Origin: Opitutales bacterium
Lineage (GTDB): Bacteria > Verrucomicrobiota > Verrucomicrobiia > Opitutales > Coraliomargaritaceae
Direction: 5' to 3'
NCBI GenBank assembly: GCA_018607135.1
Contig: JABBCA010000077.1
Location: 1-35,221 of the forward strand
DNA length: 35,221 bases
Numbering within the stretch: position 1 is the first letter of the stretch; each line of letters opens with the position of its first letter. The notes under the pieces were generated by a model. It was not told the origin of the DNA, did not search any database, and saw nothing but the letters and a program-made list of their open reading frames with translations. Shown here piece by piece: positions 8,238 to 31,045 of this stretch. Made by a program: the position numbers and the translations under genes.

Positions 8238-8885
8238 ATGGCGAATTCGGTAACAGTGAAAATTTGCGGTTTAACACGTGAGAGAGATGTCGCGCATGCT
8301 CTGAGCTTAGGTGCAGATTTACTAGGCTTTATCGTTTATGAGCCATCCCCACGTGGTTTGACAGTTGAAAGGGCACAAGAGTTGGCAGCTCTGGTGCCGA
8401 TCGGTCGTAGGGTGGTCGTCGATGTGGCTCCTTCAATTGAGAAGCTCAGTCAATGTTTGGATGCGGGATTTGATTATTTTCAAATTCATTTAGACGGATC
8501 TACCAATGAAGCGAGTGTCGCTGCTTGGTCTGAGCTGGTTGGTAAGTCCCGTTTATGGCTGGCTCCTCGGCTGAAGCCAGGCGAAGTGTTTCCAGAGCAC
8601 TTGCTTCAGTATGCGGAGACAATTTTGGTAGATACTTATTCTAGTGAACAAGTCGGTGGCACTGGGCAGACTGGAGAGTGGGGGGATTTCGCTCGTTGGA
8701 AGACTGATTACTCGCAGCAGCAGTGGGTCTTAGCAGGTGGCTTGAATGCTGGAAATATAACACGGGCAATCGCTGAGACGGGGGCCAGCCATCTTGACGT
8801 AAATAGCGGTGTGGAAATCCGTCCAGGAGTTAAAGATCACGAAAAGTTGGAATCTTTATTTGGCGTGTGTAAACAGAGTTTTTAG
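8238..8885 (+). CDS. trpF: phosphoribosylanthranilate isomerase
   Basis: Converts N-(5-phosphoribosyl)anthranilate to CdRP in tryptophan biosynthesis, in the cytoplasm. The 215-aa TIM barrel has the KICGLTR motif with the general-base Cys10, GADLLGFIVYEPSPRG, the catalytic acid Asp132 in LVDTYSSE, GGTGQTGEWGDF, LAGGLNAGNI and the phosphate-binding LDVNSGVEIRPGVKD end. The segment VVVDVAPS replaces the commoner VGVFVN strand and FQIHLDGS replaces VQLHG. These are mild divergences. It stands alone, with no other trp gene in the window. Three inverted repeats precede it and a weak stem-loop follows it. Confidence 0.96.
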   Translation: MANSVTVKICGLTRERDVAHALSLGADLLGFIVYEPSPRGLTVERAQELAALVPIGRRVVVDVAPSIEKLSQCLDAGFDYFQIHLDGSTNEASVAAWSELVGKSRLWLAPRLKPGEVFPEHLLQYAETILVDTYSSEQVGGTGQTGEWGDFARWKTDYSQQQWVLAGGLNAGNITRAIAETGASHLDVNSGVEIRPGVKDHEKLESLFGVCKQSF

Positions 8886-8888
8886 CCG

Positions 8889-8918
8889 TTCGGGTTGATA
8901 ACAGAGTTTCAACCCAAA
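8889..8918 (+). other. stem-loop just after trpF (TTCGGGTTGA family)
   Basis: TTCGGGTTGA (8889-8898) pairs with TCAACCCAAA (8909-8918), with one mismatch and a 10-nt loop, starting four bases after the trpF stop. There is no immediate T-run, though ACTTTTTAA lies 12 bases further on. A closely related stem-loop follows the CNNM gene at 29982-30013. It could be a 3'-end processing or termination element. Confidence 0.4.
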
Positions 8919-9125
8919 CTACGCAAACGAACTTTTTAATCAATAGGATTCAATTTGTAAGTGCCCTTATATCGGGCACATTTCAGATGCATCGCATTAG
9001 AAATGTGCTCACCCAGGGGGTGCTCATAAATTCCTTAAGCGGCCCGGGCACATGGCTGCCTGTCAGGCTAGCAGTCACTTATGTGTATACGCCTCCCTCG
9101 GCATTCAGTTGCCGGGTGCTAGCAC
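8908..9125 (+). repeat. structured intergenic repeat, copy A
   Basis: Non-coding element in the convergent gap between trpF and the histidine kinase. It matches, in inverted orientation, the sequence at 30432-30747. Identical blocks include 21 nt (8941-8961 with 30710-30690) and 22 nt (9047-9068 with 30604-30583). A stem-loop at 8976-9008 has the perfect arms GCACATTTC/GAAATGTGC enclosing ATGC-ATC-GCAT. Further dyads follow around CACCC/GGGTG and GCCTGTCAGGC, and the element ends near the palindrome GTGCTAGCAC. No ORF is present in it. Confidence 0.85.
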
Positions 9126-9184: not shown

Positions 9185-10999
9185 TTAAAGTGATTCTAGA
9201 TGTTTAGCGATTCGCTGGCACATCAACAGTTGTTCATCTTTGGGCATCAAGGCATGCGCTTCACTTAACTGCTTTAGCGCTGCAGCGACACCTTCTTCTC
9301 GTCTGAGATTTGAGAGCCCAGTCAGCTTGTGAAGGGAATTGCGAGTGGTTGATACCTTATTACTTTGTATCGCAACCTGCAGTCGCTCCAATTCCTTTAG
9401 AAATGCCGCTTGATATCTTTTCTTGAGTGCGAACGCAGCGTCGGGGTCGTTGTTTGCAATATAGTTTAAAAGGTTTTGCGTGTTAGGTTTTTTTGAAGTG
9501 GTTTTAAGCTCTTCGGAATCGCTTAAAATTTCAGTCAATTTAGTCTGATCGAGAGGCTTTTCGATGAAGTGATCAAAGCCATTTTCGAGGCATGCGGCTT
9601 CAGTCTCTGTGGTTAAGTAGGCACTCAGTGCGATGAGTAGTGGAGGATAGGACGGGCGTGCGGCTAAATACTCGATGACGACATCAATGCCGTTTTTCTT
9701 CGGCATATTTAGATCTAAAATCGCTAGAAAGTAGTCTTCTGATTTCAGTCGTTTCAGTGCCTCTACGCCATCTTGAGCCACATCGACCTGAGCCCCCATT
9801 TTTGATAGCAGCTCTTTACTGACATAACGATTGAAGTCCATGTCATCGGCAACAAGCACCTTTTTGTTTCTCAATAATTTTATGTTTTTATTGAGATGAG
9901 GAGTTTGATGATTGAGAGGCTCTCCGATGATTATTGGTATTTCGAGAACGAACTTAGAGCCTGATTTTGCTTGAGTGGTGGAGTCCAATCTTAGTGTGCC
10001 ATTCATAAGCTCGGTGAATTGGCGGGCGATGTTGAGGCCGAGCCCTGCCCCAGAGATTTGGCTCTCACCAGGCTCGCTAAGACGCGTGAAATCCGCAAAA
10101 ATATGTTTTTGTTTATCAACTGGGATGCCTGTTCCAGTGTCTTCAACGATAATGCGAGCCATCGTAGACGTCTCCGAAGTGATGAGGTCGAGTTTTAGAC
10201 CTATCCAACCTGCATTGGTATATTTTACTGAATTTGAAATTAGGCTGATTACAACCTGTTTGAACAACGCAGGATCTCCAACCCAGTAATTTTGGATGCT
10301 GGGAAGGTGAACCTTAAATTCTAAATTTTTATGGCTAGCGACTTCAGTATATGTTGAGACGACTTCATGAATGATGGATACTGCGTTAAAGCTGACCGCT
10401 CGCGCTAGGACAGTGCCTGCTTCTAAGCTACTGTAATCGAGCAATTGCCCGATGAGCCGGTGTAAATGGCTTGCGCAAGAGTGAAGGTAGTTGGCGCGCT
10501 CAATTTCTGTATGGTGAATATTCGGGTTTTCTTTCAAAAGCTCTGAAATTCCTAGGATCCCATTCAGAGGGTTGCGTATCTCATGGCTCATGCTTGCCAA
10601 GAAATTATGTTTCACTCTGTTTGCTTTGGTAAGCTCAAGGTTTTGCTTTTCGAGTTCGGCAGTGCGAAGCTGGACCAGTTGCTCTAATTGCTTATTTTTC
10701 TTTTTTAGCTGCAGCGTATATATTCGGCAGAAAATGAGACCTATCGCAAAAATACCTGCAAAATAGAGCAGGTTTCCTTCTATTGGCTCATGCAAACGGG
10801 CATGCGTAGTTTGAACTGAGCCATCTGCTTGGTGCTGGGTGATTTTAGGAGCTGTCCACGAGGATGAATCGGAATGAAGACGCTCTGCTCTAACTGCTGC
10901 ATTAAATATCTGAGTCATCCCGAGTGCTGCGATGCATATCAAGACGATATGCACTCTGCTTTGCTTGACTTTATGAGGTCGGCCTTGGCGTGAGGACAT
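9185..10999 (-). CDS. hybrid sensor histidine kinase with receiver and Hpt domains
   Basis: 604-aa membrane phosphorelay kinase. Two hydrophobic segments (about residues 17-36 and 77-94) bracket a short external loop of about 40 residues, too small for a known sensor domain. A coiled coil leads to the dimerisation H-box FLASMSHEIRNPLNGI, with phospho-His139. The catalytic domain has an N-box (SLISNSVKYTNAG), G1 (VEDTGTGIP) and G2 (GAGLGLNIARQF). A receiver domain follows with DDMDFNRY, phospho-Asp near 428 in AILDLNMPKKNG and Lys in FIEKPLD. A C-terminal Hpt helix carries HKLTGLSNLRREEG with His near 557. It is divergent from the response regulator at 11111, its likely partner through the Hpt domain. 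Confidence 0.93.
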   Translation of the reverse strand: MSSRQGRPHKVKQSRVHIVLICIAALGMTQIFNAAVRAERLHSDSSSWTAPKITQHQADGSVQTTHARLHEPIEGNLLYFAGIFAIGLIFCRIYTLQLKKKNKQLEQLVQLRTAELEKQNLELTKANRVKHNFLASMSHEIRNPLNGILGISELLKENPNIHHTEIERANYLHSCASHLHRLIGQLLDYSSLEAGTVLARAVSFNAVSIIHEVVSTYTEVASHKNLEFKVHLPSIQNYWVGDPALFKQVVISLISNSVKYTNAGWIGLKLDLITSETSTMARIIVEDTGTGIPVDKQKHIFADFTRLSEPGESQISGAGLGLNIARQFTELMNGTLRLDSTTQAKSGSKFVLEIPIIIGEPLNHQTPHLNKNIKLLRNKKVLVADDMDFNRYVSKELLSKMGAQVDVAQDGVEALKRLKSEDYFLAILDLNMPKKNGIDVVIEYLAARPSYPPLLIALSAYLTTETEAACLENGFDHFIEKPLDQTKLTEILSDSEELKTTSKKPNTQNLLNYIANNDPDAAFALKKRYQAAFLKELERLQVAIQSNKVSTTRNSLHKLTGLSNLRREEGVAAALKQLSEAHALMPKDEQLLMCQRIAKHLESL

Positions 11000-29981: not shown

Positions 29982-30013
29982 ATTGGGCTGAAGGATCTTA
30001 AGTTCAACCCGAA
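29982..30013 (+). other. stem-loop after the CNNM gene (TTCGGGTTGA family)
   Basis: ATTGGGCTGAA (29982-29992) faces TTCAACCCGAA (30003-30013) across a 10-nt loop; most positions pair, one as G-U. The right arm matches the arms of the stem-loop after trpF (8889-8918) and the single arm at 30733-30747. It lies 41 bases past the CNNM stop. Confidence 0.4.
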
Positions 30014-30065
30014 TTATGCAGGTATGCGTTCGATCAAGTATTAAGTCTTATATTTTCAAATTGTT

Positions 30066-30235
30066 TTAGGATGAAGTCGTTTCTTTTTCAAAGCCCATTT
30101 CTTTGAGAGTCTCCATTGCGAGCATACCGGCAATGATGGAGAGCTTTAGTTGCATCTGTTTTGACATTTCCAGTAGTGGGATGAAGTGCCCTTTAAGCAA
30201 GTGCCAGATAGCGGTGACAATCAGGTATTCGGTTT
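30066..30235 (-). pseudogene. possible gene remnant, 56-codon open frame
   Basis: The minus strand is open for 56 codons between stops, with an internal ATG at 30167 giving 33 aa (MSKQMQLKLSIIAGMLAME…). The translation upstream of that ATG (EYLIVTAIWHLLKGHFIPLL) is hydrophobic and protein-like, and the whole could be the tail of a lost gene, for example a mobile-element gene. I cannot name a family. No ribosome-binding site is evident. Confidence 0.3.
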
Positions 30236-30431
30236 CTCACCATGTGGGTGCGTTCCGTCGGCGCTCAATCAATAGAACGGAGAGTAACTCCAGCAGAATC
30301 CTCGAGCGTCTCCAGTAGCCACCCGTGGGTTTCGCAAATCACCCACGAGTCAGCTGCTCTACGTCCAGTTACCACCATGCTTAACAAGATTCTTTTGTTT
30401 AGTTGCATGATCGACGCATACCATCAATAGA

Positions 30432-30747
30432 ATGAGCTAGGTGCTCGGCAACTGACGAAGCTCGGCAGAGCGAAGATGGTGCACCTCTTGAGGTGTGCCC
30501 GAAGGGAAGGCGAAACGGGTGCCCTTTGGGCGGTTTCAACGAACAAGGCCGATGGAGTCACCGCTCAGCGGGATGACTGCTGGCCTGACAGGCAGCCATG
30601 TGCCTTGGTCGCCTAAGGGATTTTTGAGCACCCTCTTGGTGAGCACATTTCGAATGCGATGCATTAGAAATGTGCCTAATATAGAGAAGCTTACAAATTG
30701 AATCCTATTGCTCAGAAAGTCCCTTTGCATCGTTCGGGTTGAACCTT
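30432..30747 (-). repeat. structured intergenic repeat, copy B (longer)
   Basis: Inverted-orientation homologue of 8908-9125, with identical blocks of 21 and 22 nt. It conserves the stem-loop GCACATTTC / GAAATGTGC around ATGC-GAT-GCAT (30643-30675); the two-base internal bulges differ from copy A while every paired base is kept. It carries about 95 extra bases relative to copy A, roughly 30465-30560. These contain two more hairpins, GCACCTC-TT-GAGGTGTGC and GAAAC…GCCC-TTT-GGGC…GTTTC. No coding frame is supported. Confidence 0.85.
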
Positions 30748-30771
30748 TAGAGCACCCAATATACGGTAGAG

Positions 30772-30863
30772 TGTAGTGCCTGAGCTTGCTCAGGCCAGCA
30801 GTGCCTAATTCTGGATCCCAGCTTGCTCGACAATCGGGGCGACGAGCAAGCTCGCACACTACA
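30772..30863. repeat. REP/BIME-like paired palindromic element
   Basis: Outer inverted ends TGTAGTG (30772-30778) and CACTACA (30857-30863) enclose two palindromic units in opposite orientation: CCTGAGC-TT-GCTCAGG (30779-30794) and CGAGC-AA-GCTCG (30843-30854). AGCTTGCTCG (30820-30829) also pairs perfectly with 30843-30852. A third unit, plus orientation, lies at 33180-33203. The layout is that of a bacterial interspersed mosaic element; no REP-associated transposase (RAYT) is in the window. Confidence 0.75.
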
Positions 30864-31045
30864 GTTTTACGCATGAACTTTGAACTTTCGACAAACGCTC
30901 TAATCCTCTCTGTTTTCCATAAGTCTTTACCTTCCAAAGACTCGATTAAGATTACCATTACAGTTTCGACATACGCCTACAAAAATCGGAACCTGAGTTG
31001 TATTCATTTGTCAGCTTTTCTGTCTCAATACGATCTATTCACATC

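Follow-up and report, generated by a model that had tools for sequence, protein, structure and literature searches.

The window, which is the whole stretch of 35,221 nucleotides analysed here, contains two similar repeats on opposite strands, referred to as copies A and B. Flanking copy A are a trpF-like gene and, convergent with it, a gene for a hybrid histidine kinase, and copy B has a CNNM/CorC-type gene on one side and a trypsin/PDZ (DegP-like) protease gene on the other, as assigned with Pfam. Both repeats are decayed MITE copies and the features at the two loci are:

8238-8885, plus strand: trpF-like gene (Pfam), flank of copy A
8908-9114, plus strand: copy A, a MITE with its left terminus kept and its right terminus gone; 87.9% identity over 8908-9114 to a complete copy in genome G008
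8908-8912, plus strand: TTCAA, the 5-mer outside the left end of copy A, presumed left half of a target duplication by comparison with 20 two-ended copies
8913-8925, plus strand: left terminal inverted repeat of copy A, CCCAAACTACGCA, with one mismatch to the terminal pattern
8976-9008, plus strand: left-arm apical hairpin of copy A, GCACATTTC..GAAATGTGC, pairing as helices 4-5 of the whole-element consensus A3
9047-9119, plus strand: right-arm core of copy A, decayed; partial match of covariance model R1 at 9048-9119 (E 1.8e-4)
9185-10999, minus strand: hybrid histidine kinase gene (Pfam), convergent flank of copy A
30003-30743, minus strand: copy B, the long variant of the MITE (about 325 bp), with both flanking 5-mers and a nested insertion
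30008-30020, plus strand: right terminal inverted repeat of copy B, CCCGAATTATGCA
30021-30422, minus strand: 402-bp insertion nested in copy B, with its own inverted repeats GGTATGCGTCGATCA / TGATCGAACGCATACC
30643-30675, minus strand: left-arm apical hairpin of copy B
30726-30738, minus strand: left terminal inverted repeat of copy B, CCCGAACGATGCA

An earlier note on this DNA had reported the two similar stretches on opposite strands, and their likeness is indeed far above chance, with 85% identity over 171 positions of the core in a BLAST search within the window (E 2.8e-45). Also as reported, a 21-nt block (from 8941 on the plus strand and 30690 on the minus strand) and a 22-nt block (9047 plus, 30583 minus) are identical in both copies, and the stem GCACATTTC/GAAATGTGC is found in copies A and B alike. 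Copy A covers 8908-9114 on the plus strand, with weak similarity that continues to about 9124. For copy B the strand was right but the extent was too short, since the 402-bp insertion splits the right terminus from the body and the full copy covers 30003-30743. The statement that neither copy has an ORF is true for copy A at a threshold of 90 amino acids, but copy B is overlapped by a mechanically called ORF of 140 amino acids (30536-30958, minus strand). Copy B belongs to a longer variant, with about 92 additional bp, and has 93-97% identity to copies on C13, C93, C94 and C105. It is bordered by TTCAA and TTGAA, which form no direct repeat, and covariance model R1 gave no match at copy B. The nested 402-bp insertion (inverted repeats GGTATGCGTYCGATCA) is probably another small mobile element; by eye, a short minus-strand reading frame ends inside it. 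Beside copy B, at about 30775-30885 of the window, lies a further palindromic repeat with a REP-like look, GCGAGCTTGCTCGTC...GAGCAAGC...CTGAGCTTGCTCAGG.

The earlier note counted only two copies, but the 3.53-Mb draft genome has the repeat at at least 28 places on 23 contigs, a count in which pieces of one copy and antisense self-matches were merged and some places hold half a copy where a contig ends. A terminus was also seen at three additional weak places. The terminal pattern, read at 26 places, is CCC[AG][AG]A[CT][GT]ATGCA, inverted at the two ends. It occurs 40 times exactly in the own genome and 92 times with one mismatch, against 27 times for the reversed pattern. Twenty copies have both ends: 11 of 233/234 bp, three of 324-325 bp, three longer ones (636, 731 and 1067 bp) that by eye contain other insertions, and three short or rearranged ones (88, 135 and 159 bp). 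Identical 5-mers border 10 of these 20 copies (shuffled mean 4.2, p 0.0025; 9 of 20 if the right border of the copy on C94 is not shifted by one base), and inverted 5-mers border one of them. The duplicated 5-mers are mostly TTNAA. One pair reads GTGAA/GTGAA, which indicates that the 5-mer is not merely part of the terminus. Half of the two-ended copies have no identical 5-mer, and neither window copy shows a duplication, copy A having lost its right end. Placement is mostly intergenic, and among 18 own copies with mechanically called ORFs around them nine lie between convergent genes, seven between tandem genes and one between divergent genes, while one is unclear. The family thus has the traits of a MITE, one of the options that the earlier note had offered: terminal inverted repeats, a 5-bp target-site duplication, and a short, non-coding sequence in many copies.

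By eye, two MITE copies of G000 (L004/L027 and L009, on C105 and C87) are split by an element that ends in GGTTCTTCGCTATTTTTAGTGGAT or similar, and a similar end also cuts copy L118 in G031. Loci L143-L144 and L147 (G044, G001) are very short, about 40-70 bp; their ends are similar, with at most three mismatches on the right, and they look like derivatives that arose by internal deletion.

The consensus structure of 13 whole elements from four genera (A3) has a base made up of the termini and two arms, the left one and a right one of about 104 nt; minimum-energy folds of single elements match it only partly. In A3, 51 cells showed double changes compared with 15.6 after shuffling. The core was followed in a structure-blind alignment (A1) of 36 out of 43 sequences, from which L006, L010, one L216 copy, L127, L109, L138 and L155 were excluded because they were near-duplicate, divergent or rearranged. 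In A1, 83.2% of the cells were paired versus 64.2% after shuffling. Both sides of the pair had changed in 165 cells, versus 58.8 +/- 6.1 in shuffled alignments (0 of 500 reached this) and 30-43 with slid partners, a comparison that is biased in favour of the drawn structure over its slid versions because it was drawn by hand from these very sequences. Covariation was present in all five core helices, and helix 2 was paired in just 59% of its cells in A1. The RNAalifold consensus of A1 recovered the structure only in part; folding contributed little to its energy (-0.38 of -4.56 kcal/mol), though 20 of its 22 pairs had double changes. A second alignment (A2) holds 102 model matches, 96 of them distinct (L006 fell short of E 0.001); since it was fitted to the model, its covariation count leans toward that model. 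Unpaired positions are conserved as well. A C.C mismatch is kept in 33 of 36 rows of A1 and 80 of 96 rows of A2, and the internal loop has T and A on its 5' side and C on its 3' side in 36/36 rows of A1, with T in 96/96 and C in 94/96 rows of A2 on opposite sides. The strong covariation supports that the pairing of the interior is kept by selection, as the earlier note had suggested. The repeat is a dispersed MITE with defined termini, target duplications in half of its two-ended copies and a conserved structure.

The spectrum of base pairs bears on the form in which this structure is selected. In those columns of A2 with more than 70% Watson-Crick pairs we counted 1600 Watson-Crick, 29 G-U (1.8%), 40 A-C and 112 other combinations, and over all pairs of A1 these numbers were 800, 34, 51 and 119. 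G-U was no commoner than A-C (p 0.23) and rarer than in 14 tRNAs of the same loci (24 of 311; Fisher p 3e-7), a control of which only the G-U share was used as the Aragorn brackets may show allowed pairs only. An RNA under selection should favour G-U over A-C. Since it does not here, the data favour pairing kept at the DNA level, in a cruciform or single-stranded hairpin or through palindrome correction, rather than as RNA. A structured non-coding RNA family or cis-acting RNA that is selected as a transcript and was dispersed by accident would agree with the covariation in all core helices and with the conserved loop bases. It is nevertheless improbable, given the base-pair spectrum, the many copies between convergent genes and the outcome of the Rfam searches: the window at gathering scores gave a tRNA as its single match and none at the elements, and seven loci searched up to E 5 gave a single match at chance level (E 1.6), which does not lie on the element.

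We give a similarly low probability to a purely mutational origin, in which template switching during replication perfects palindromes and the structure as such is unselected. Perfectly paired arms that differ in sequence among copies of one genome, and pairs that are almost all Watson-Crick, would be in line with this. The C.C mismatch and the loop bases are conserved, however, and palindrome correction would erase such mismatches, which counts against this origin and disfavours palindrome correction alone as the cause of DNA-level pairing.

Among 91 relatives, TTNAA followed by the terminus was found in eight genomes, one of them the own genome, and the control gave a single match across the whole set; 10 of the 17 sites outside the own genome were inspected. 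At one of these ten, in Coraliomargarita sp. SDUM461004 (G004), TTGAA+CCCGGATTATGCATTAG directly abuts a C-terminal transposase fragment of 217 amino acids, whose stop codon falls within the terminus and which has a matching right end. The fragment is of the IS1380 type (NF033539, E 7.5e-27; PF13701, E 2.2e-15), and its NF033539 score of 94 bits compares with a full-length cut-off of 180. Among the 91 relatives at E 1e-20 it matched itself and a more distant gene of G054 (36% identity), and among 372 genomes of the order at E 1e-30 only itself; an intact autonomous partner with MITE ends was found in neither set. The G054 gene encodes a full-length IS1380-family transposase (NF033539, 220 bits, above the cut-off) and is bounded by the ends CCTGGATCCC / CCTGGATTCC with TATTA on each side, or with a 4-bp duplication ACGT if the border is shifted. 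In the own genome no pair of termini 0.8-3.5 kb apart was seen by eye to enclose a transposase gene. Two pairs were rejected as autonomous insertion sequences: the one on C105 (1067 bp) is a MITE with another element inside, and the one on C93 (1024 bp), which encloses an AsnC-like regulator gene and lacks TTNAA, matches by chance.

Members of the IS1380 family normally have ends that start with CC and make duplications of 4-5 bp. The MITE is alike in its CC-starting ends and 5-bp duplication, and in G004 a truncated transposase of this type stands behind a MITE terminus; the G054 member likewise has ends that start with CC and GATT and a 5-bp duplication. Unlike the family, the MITE is non-coding, prefers TTNAA and has an elaborate conserved interior. 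A further parallel comes from the eukaryotic piggyBac superfamily, which duplicates TTAA and has ends that mostly start with CCC, and for which the prokaryotic IS1380 group was used as an outgroup (PMC10813416). The ends, which were the only feature compared with that account, resemble each other in TTAA/CCC and TTNAA/CCC, whereas the MITE is bacterial and has a 5-bp target with a free central base. Because of the G004 remnant, the G054 ends and the piggyBac/IS1380 likeness, the window repeat is classified as a MITE, most likely of the IS1380 type. We infer that an IS1380-type transposase once acted on the family and has now been lost from, or is unassembled in, the own genome.

We consider it likely that the repeat is a non-autonomous MITE, most probably mobilised in trans by an IS1380-family DDE transposase, with a right arm kept by selection on DNA-level pairing. 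The CCC...GGG termini would serve as recognition sites for the transposase, and the element would go into 5-bp TTNAA targets that become duplicated. The right arm would be an older module under selection for pairing of the DNA that may be extruded as a hairpin or cruciform. A protein could bind its conserved unpaired bases (the C.C mismatch and the TCA/CTC internal loop) and so aid spread or persistence, and the transcript would not be the form under selection.

Mobilisation as a REP/BIME-like repeat by a RAYT (Y1 HUH) seems even less probable than an RNA or a mutational origin. REPs are described as 20-40 bp long with GTAG or CGTC tags (PMC3733652). REP/BIME and CGTC repeats with RAYTs resemble the MITE as intergenic palindromes, and in most MITE copies one strand has a GGAG-like sequence where the apical stem begins: the reverse strand there reads GGAG-hairpin-TGAC, and CTCC (reverse-strand GGAG) is present in 28 of 36 rows of A1. 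PF01797 also has 13 matches in the own genome, one of them below the cut-off, which fall at 10 places. However, the other eight rows have TTCC, CGCC or TGCC, and in a strict search of the flanks, over roughly 1 kb or less where the contig stopped, the motif was found at none of these 10 places and at none of six PF01797 loci in four other genomes. Genome G071 has 50 copies of the right arm and no PF01797 match at E 1e-3. Unlike a REP, the MITE is not a palindrome of 20-40 bp with a GTAG-type tag but several times longer, and it has no association with PF01797 genes. Taken as a whole, the earlier interpretation is partly supported: the MITE, for which the transposase remnant in a relative is further evidence, and selection on structure have support, REP/BIME has none and a small-RNA family is not favoured. 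A recent segmental duplication, or chance likeness of two intergenic stretches, might come to mind where one window holds two similar stretches, but is refuted by the number of places, the defined termini and relatives in other families; the earlier note had named just two copies without covariation as the outcome that would speak for it, and many copies with covariation were found.

The distribution of the right arm is wider than that of the MITE. Of the order, 372 genomes were searched with model R1 at E 1e-4, and 25 of them, own genome included, had the arm, under nine family labels; copy counts are lower bounds because ten candidates per genome were scored. Some of these genomes have elements without IS1380-type ends. 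Since the arm occurs in other families without the MITE termini, IS1380 transposition leaves the arm itself unexplained. Beyond the order, R1 at E 0.01 gave 17 weak matches in G274, of the same phylum, and three in G455. The G274 family shares the apical motif but has a different stem (best R1 E 3e-4). For G455 (L138), no family is shown in its phylum, since 17 other genomes with the pattern compare with 10 matches of the reversed pattern and the adjacent 5-bp stem was by eye seen in none. A search of viral contigs with one exact pattern gave no matches.

In the Puniceicoccaceae MAG G071, 47 of the 50 matches are crowded into 70 kb, and all but two of these 47 (45) share one strand (binomial p 1.6e-11, which treats copies as independent though tandem groups are not). 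Among the G071 copies that were folded or read, many have the arm as part of a Y-shaped element, which also comprises a base stem and a left arm; the latter has about 12-13 perfect pairs and varies among copies. By eye, a similar left arm (GGATG...CATCC) is present in G073, G475, G069 and G536, and once in the own genome (C102). Hairpin shape, more than sequence, is common to elements scattered over a bacterial order, and the structure spans two kinds of element across it. It is possible, if rather unlikely, that Opitutales have a so far undescribed class of mobile DNA defined by structure, of which the right arm is the mark. These would be Y-shaped elements with a base stem, a variable left arm and a conserved right arm, which a recombinase would recognise as extruded hairpins and insert in fixed strand orientation, and of which one lineage would have been captured by, or have borrowed, IS1380 ends to become the MITE. 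An integron attC array was rejected as an explanation of the G071 copies clustered on one strand: the ORFs that separate them occur on either strand, and the five of ten scanned ORFs that Pfam named are ordinary or, in two cases, phage-like. A GTTRRRY-type end was not seen by eye in this cluster.

Small intergenic bacterial MITEs whose transcripts can fold are known as ERIC and Correia elements (PMC10969869). The likeness is one of description; for the MITE studied here covariation was measured and the arm also occurs in another type of element. No description of this repeat was found in the open-licence PMC literature among the matches listed. It provides a measured case of a bacterial repeat that retains pairing and specific mismatches despite sequence divergence across families, with a base-pair spectrum that suits DNA better than RNA, and it opens to experiment the question of which protein, if any, reads hairpins extruded from these chromosomes. 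With its TTNAA/CCC ends the repeat would parallel, in bacteria, the TTAA/CCC target use of piggyBac.

In G071 (L249-L253, C11, 57-127 kb) the clustered copies lie among chromosomal genes, such as one for cytochrome c552, with phage- or gene-transfer-agent-like genes interspersed (terminase, Gp84/BR0599 hub). In G086 (L254-L256) right-arm clusters occur on three contigs, on one strand per contig, and by eye the neighbouring sequence resembles the ends of Rhs-repeat proteins.
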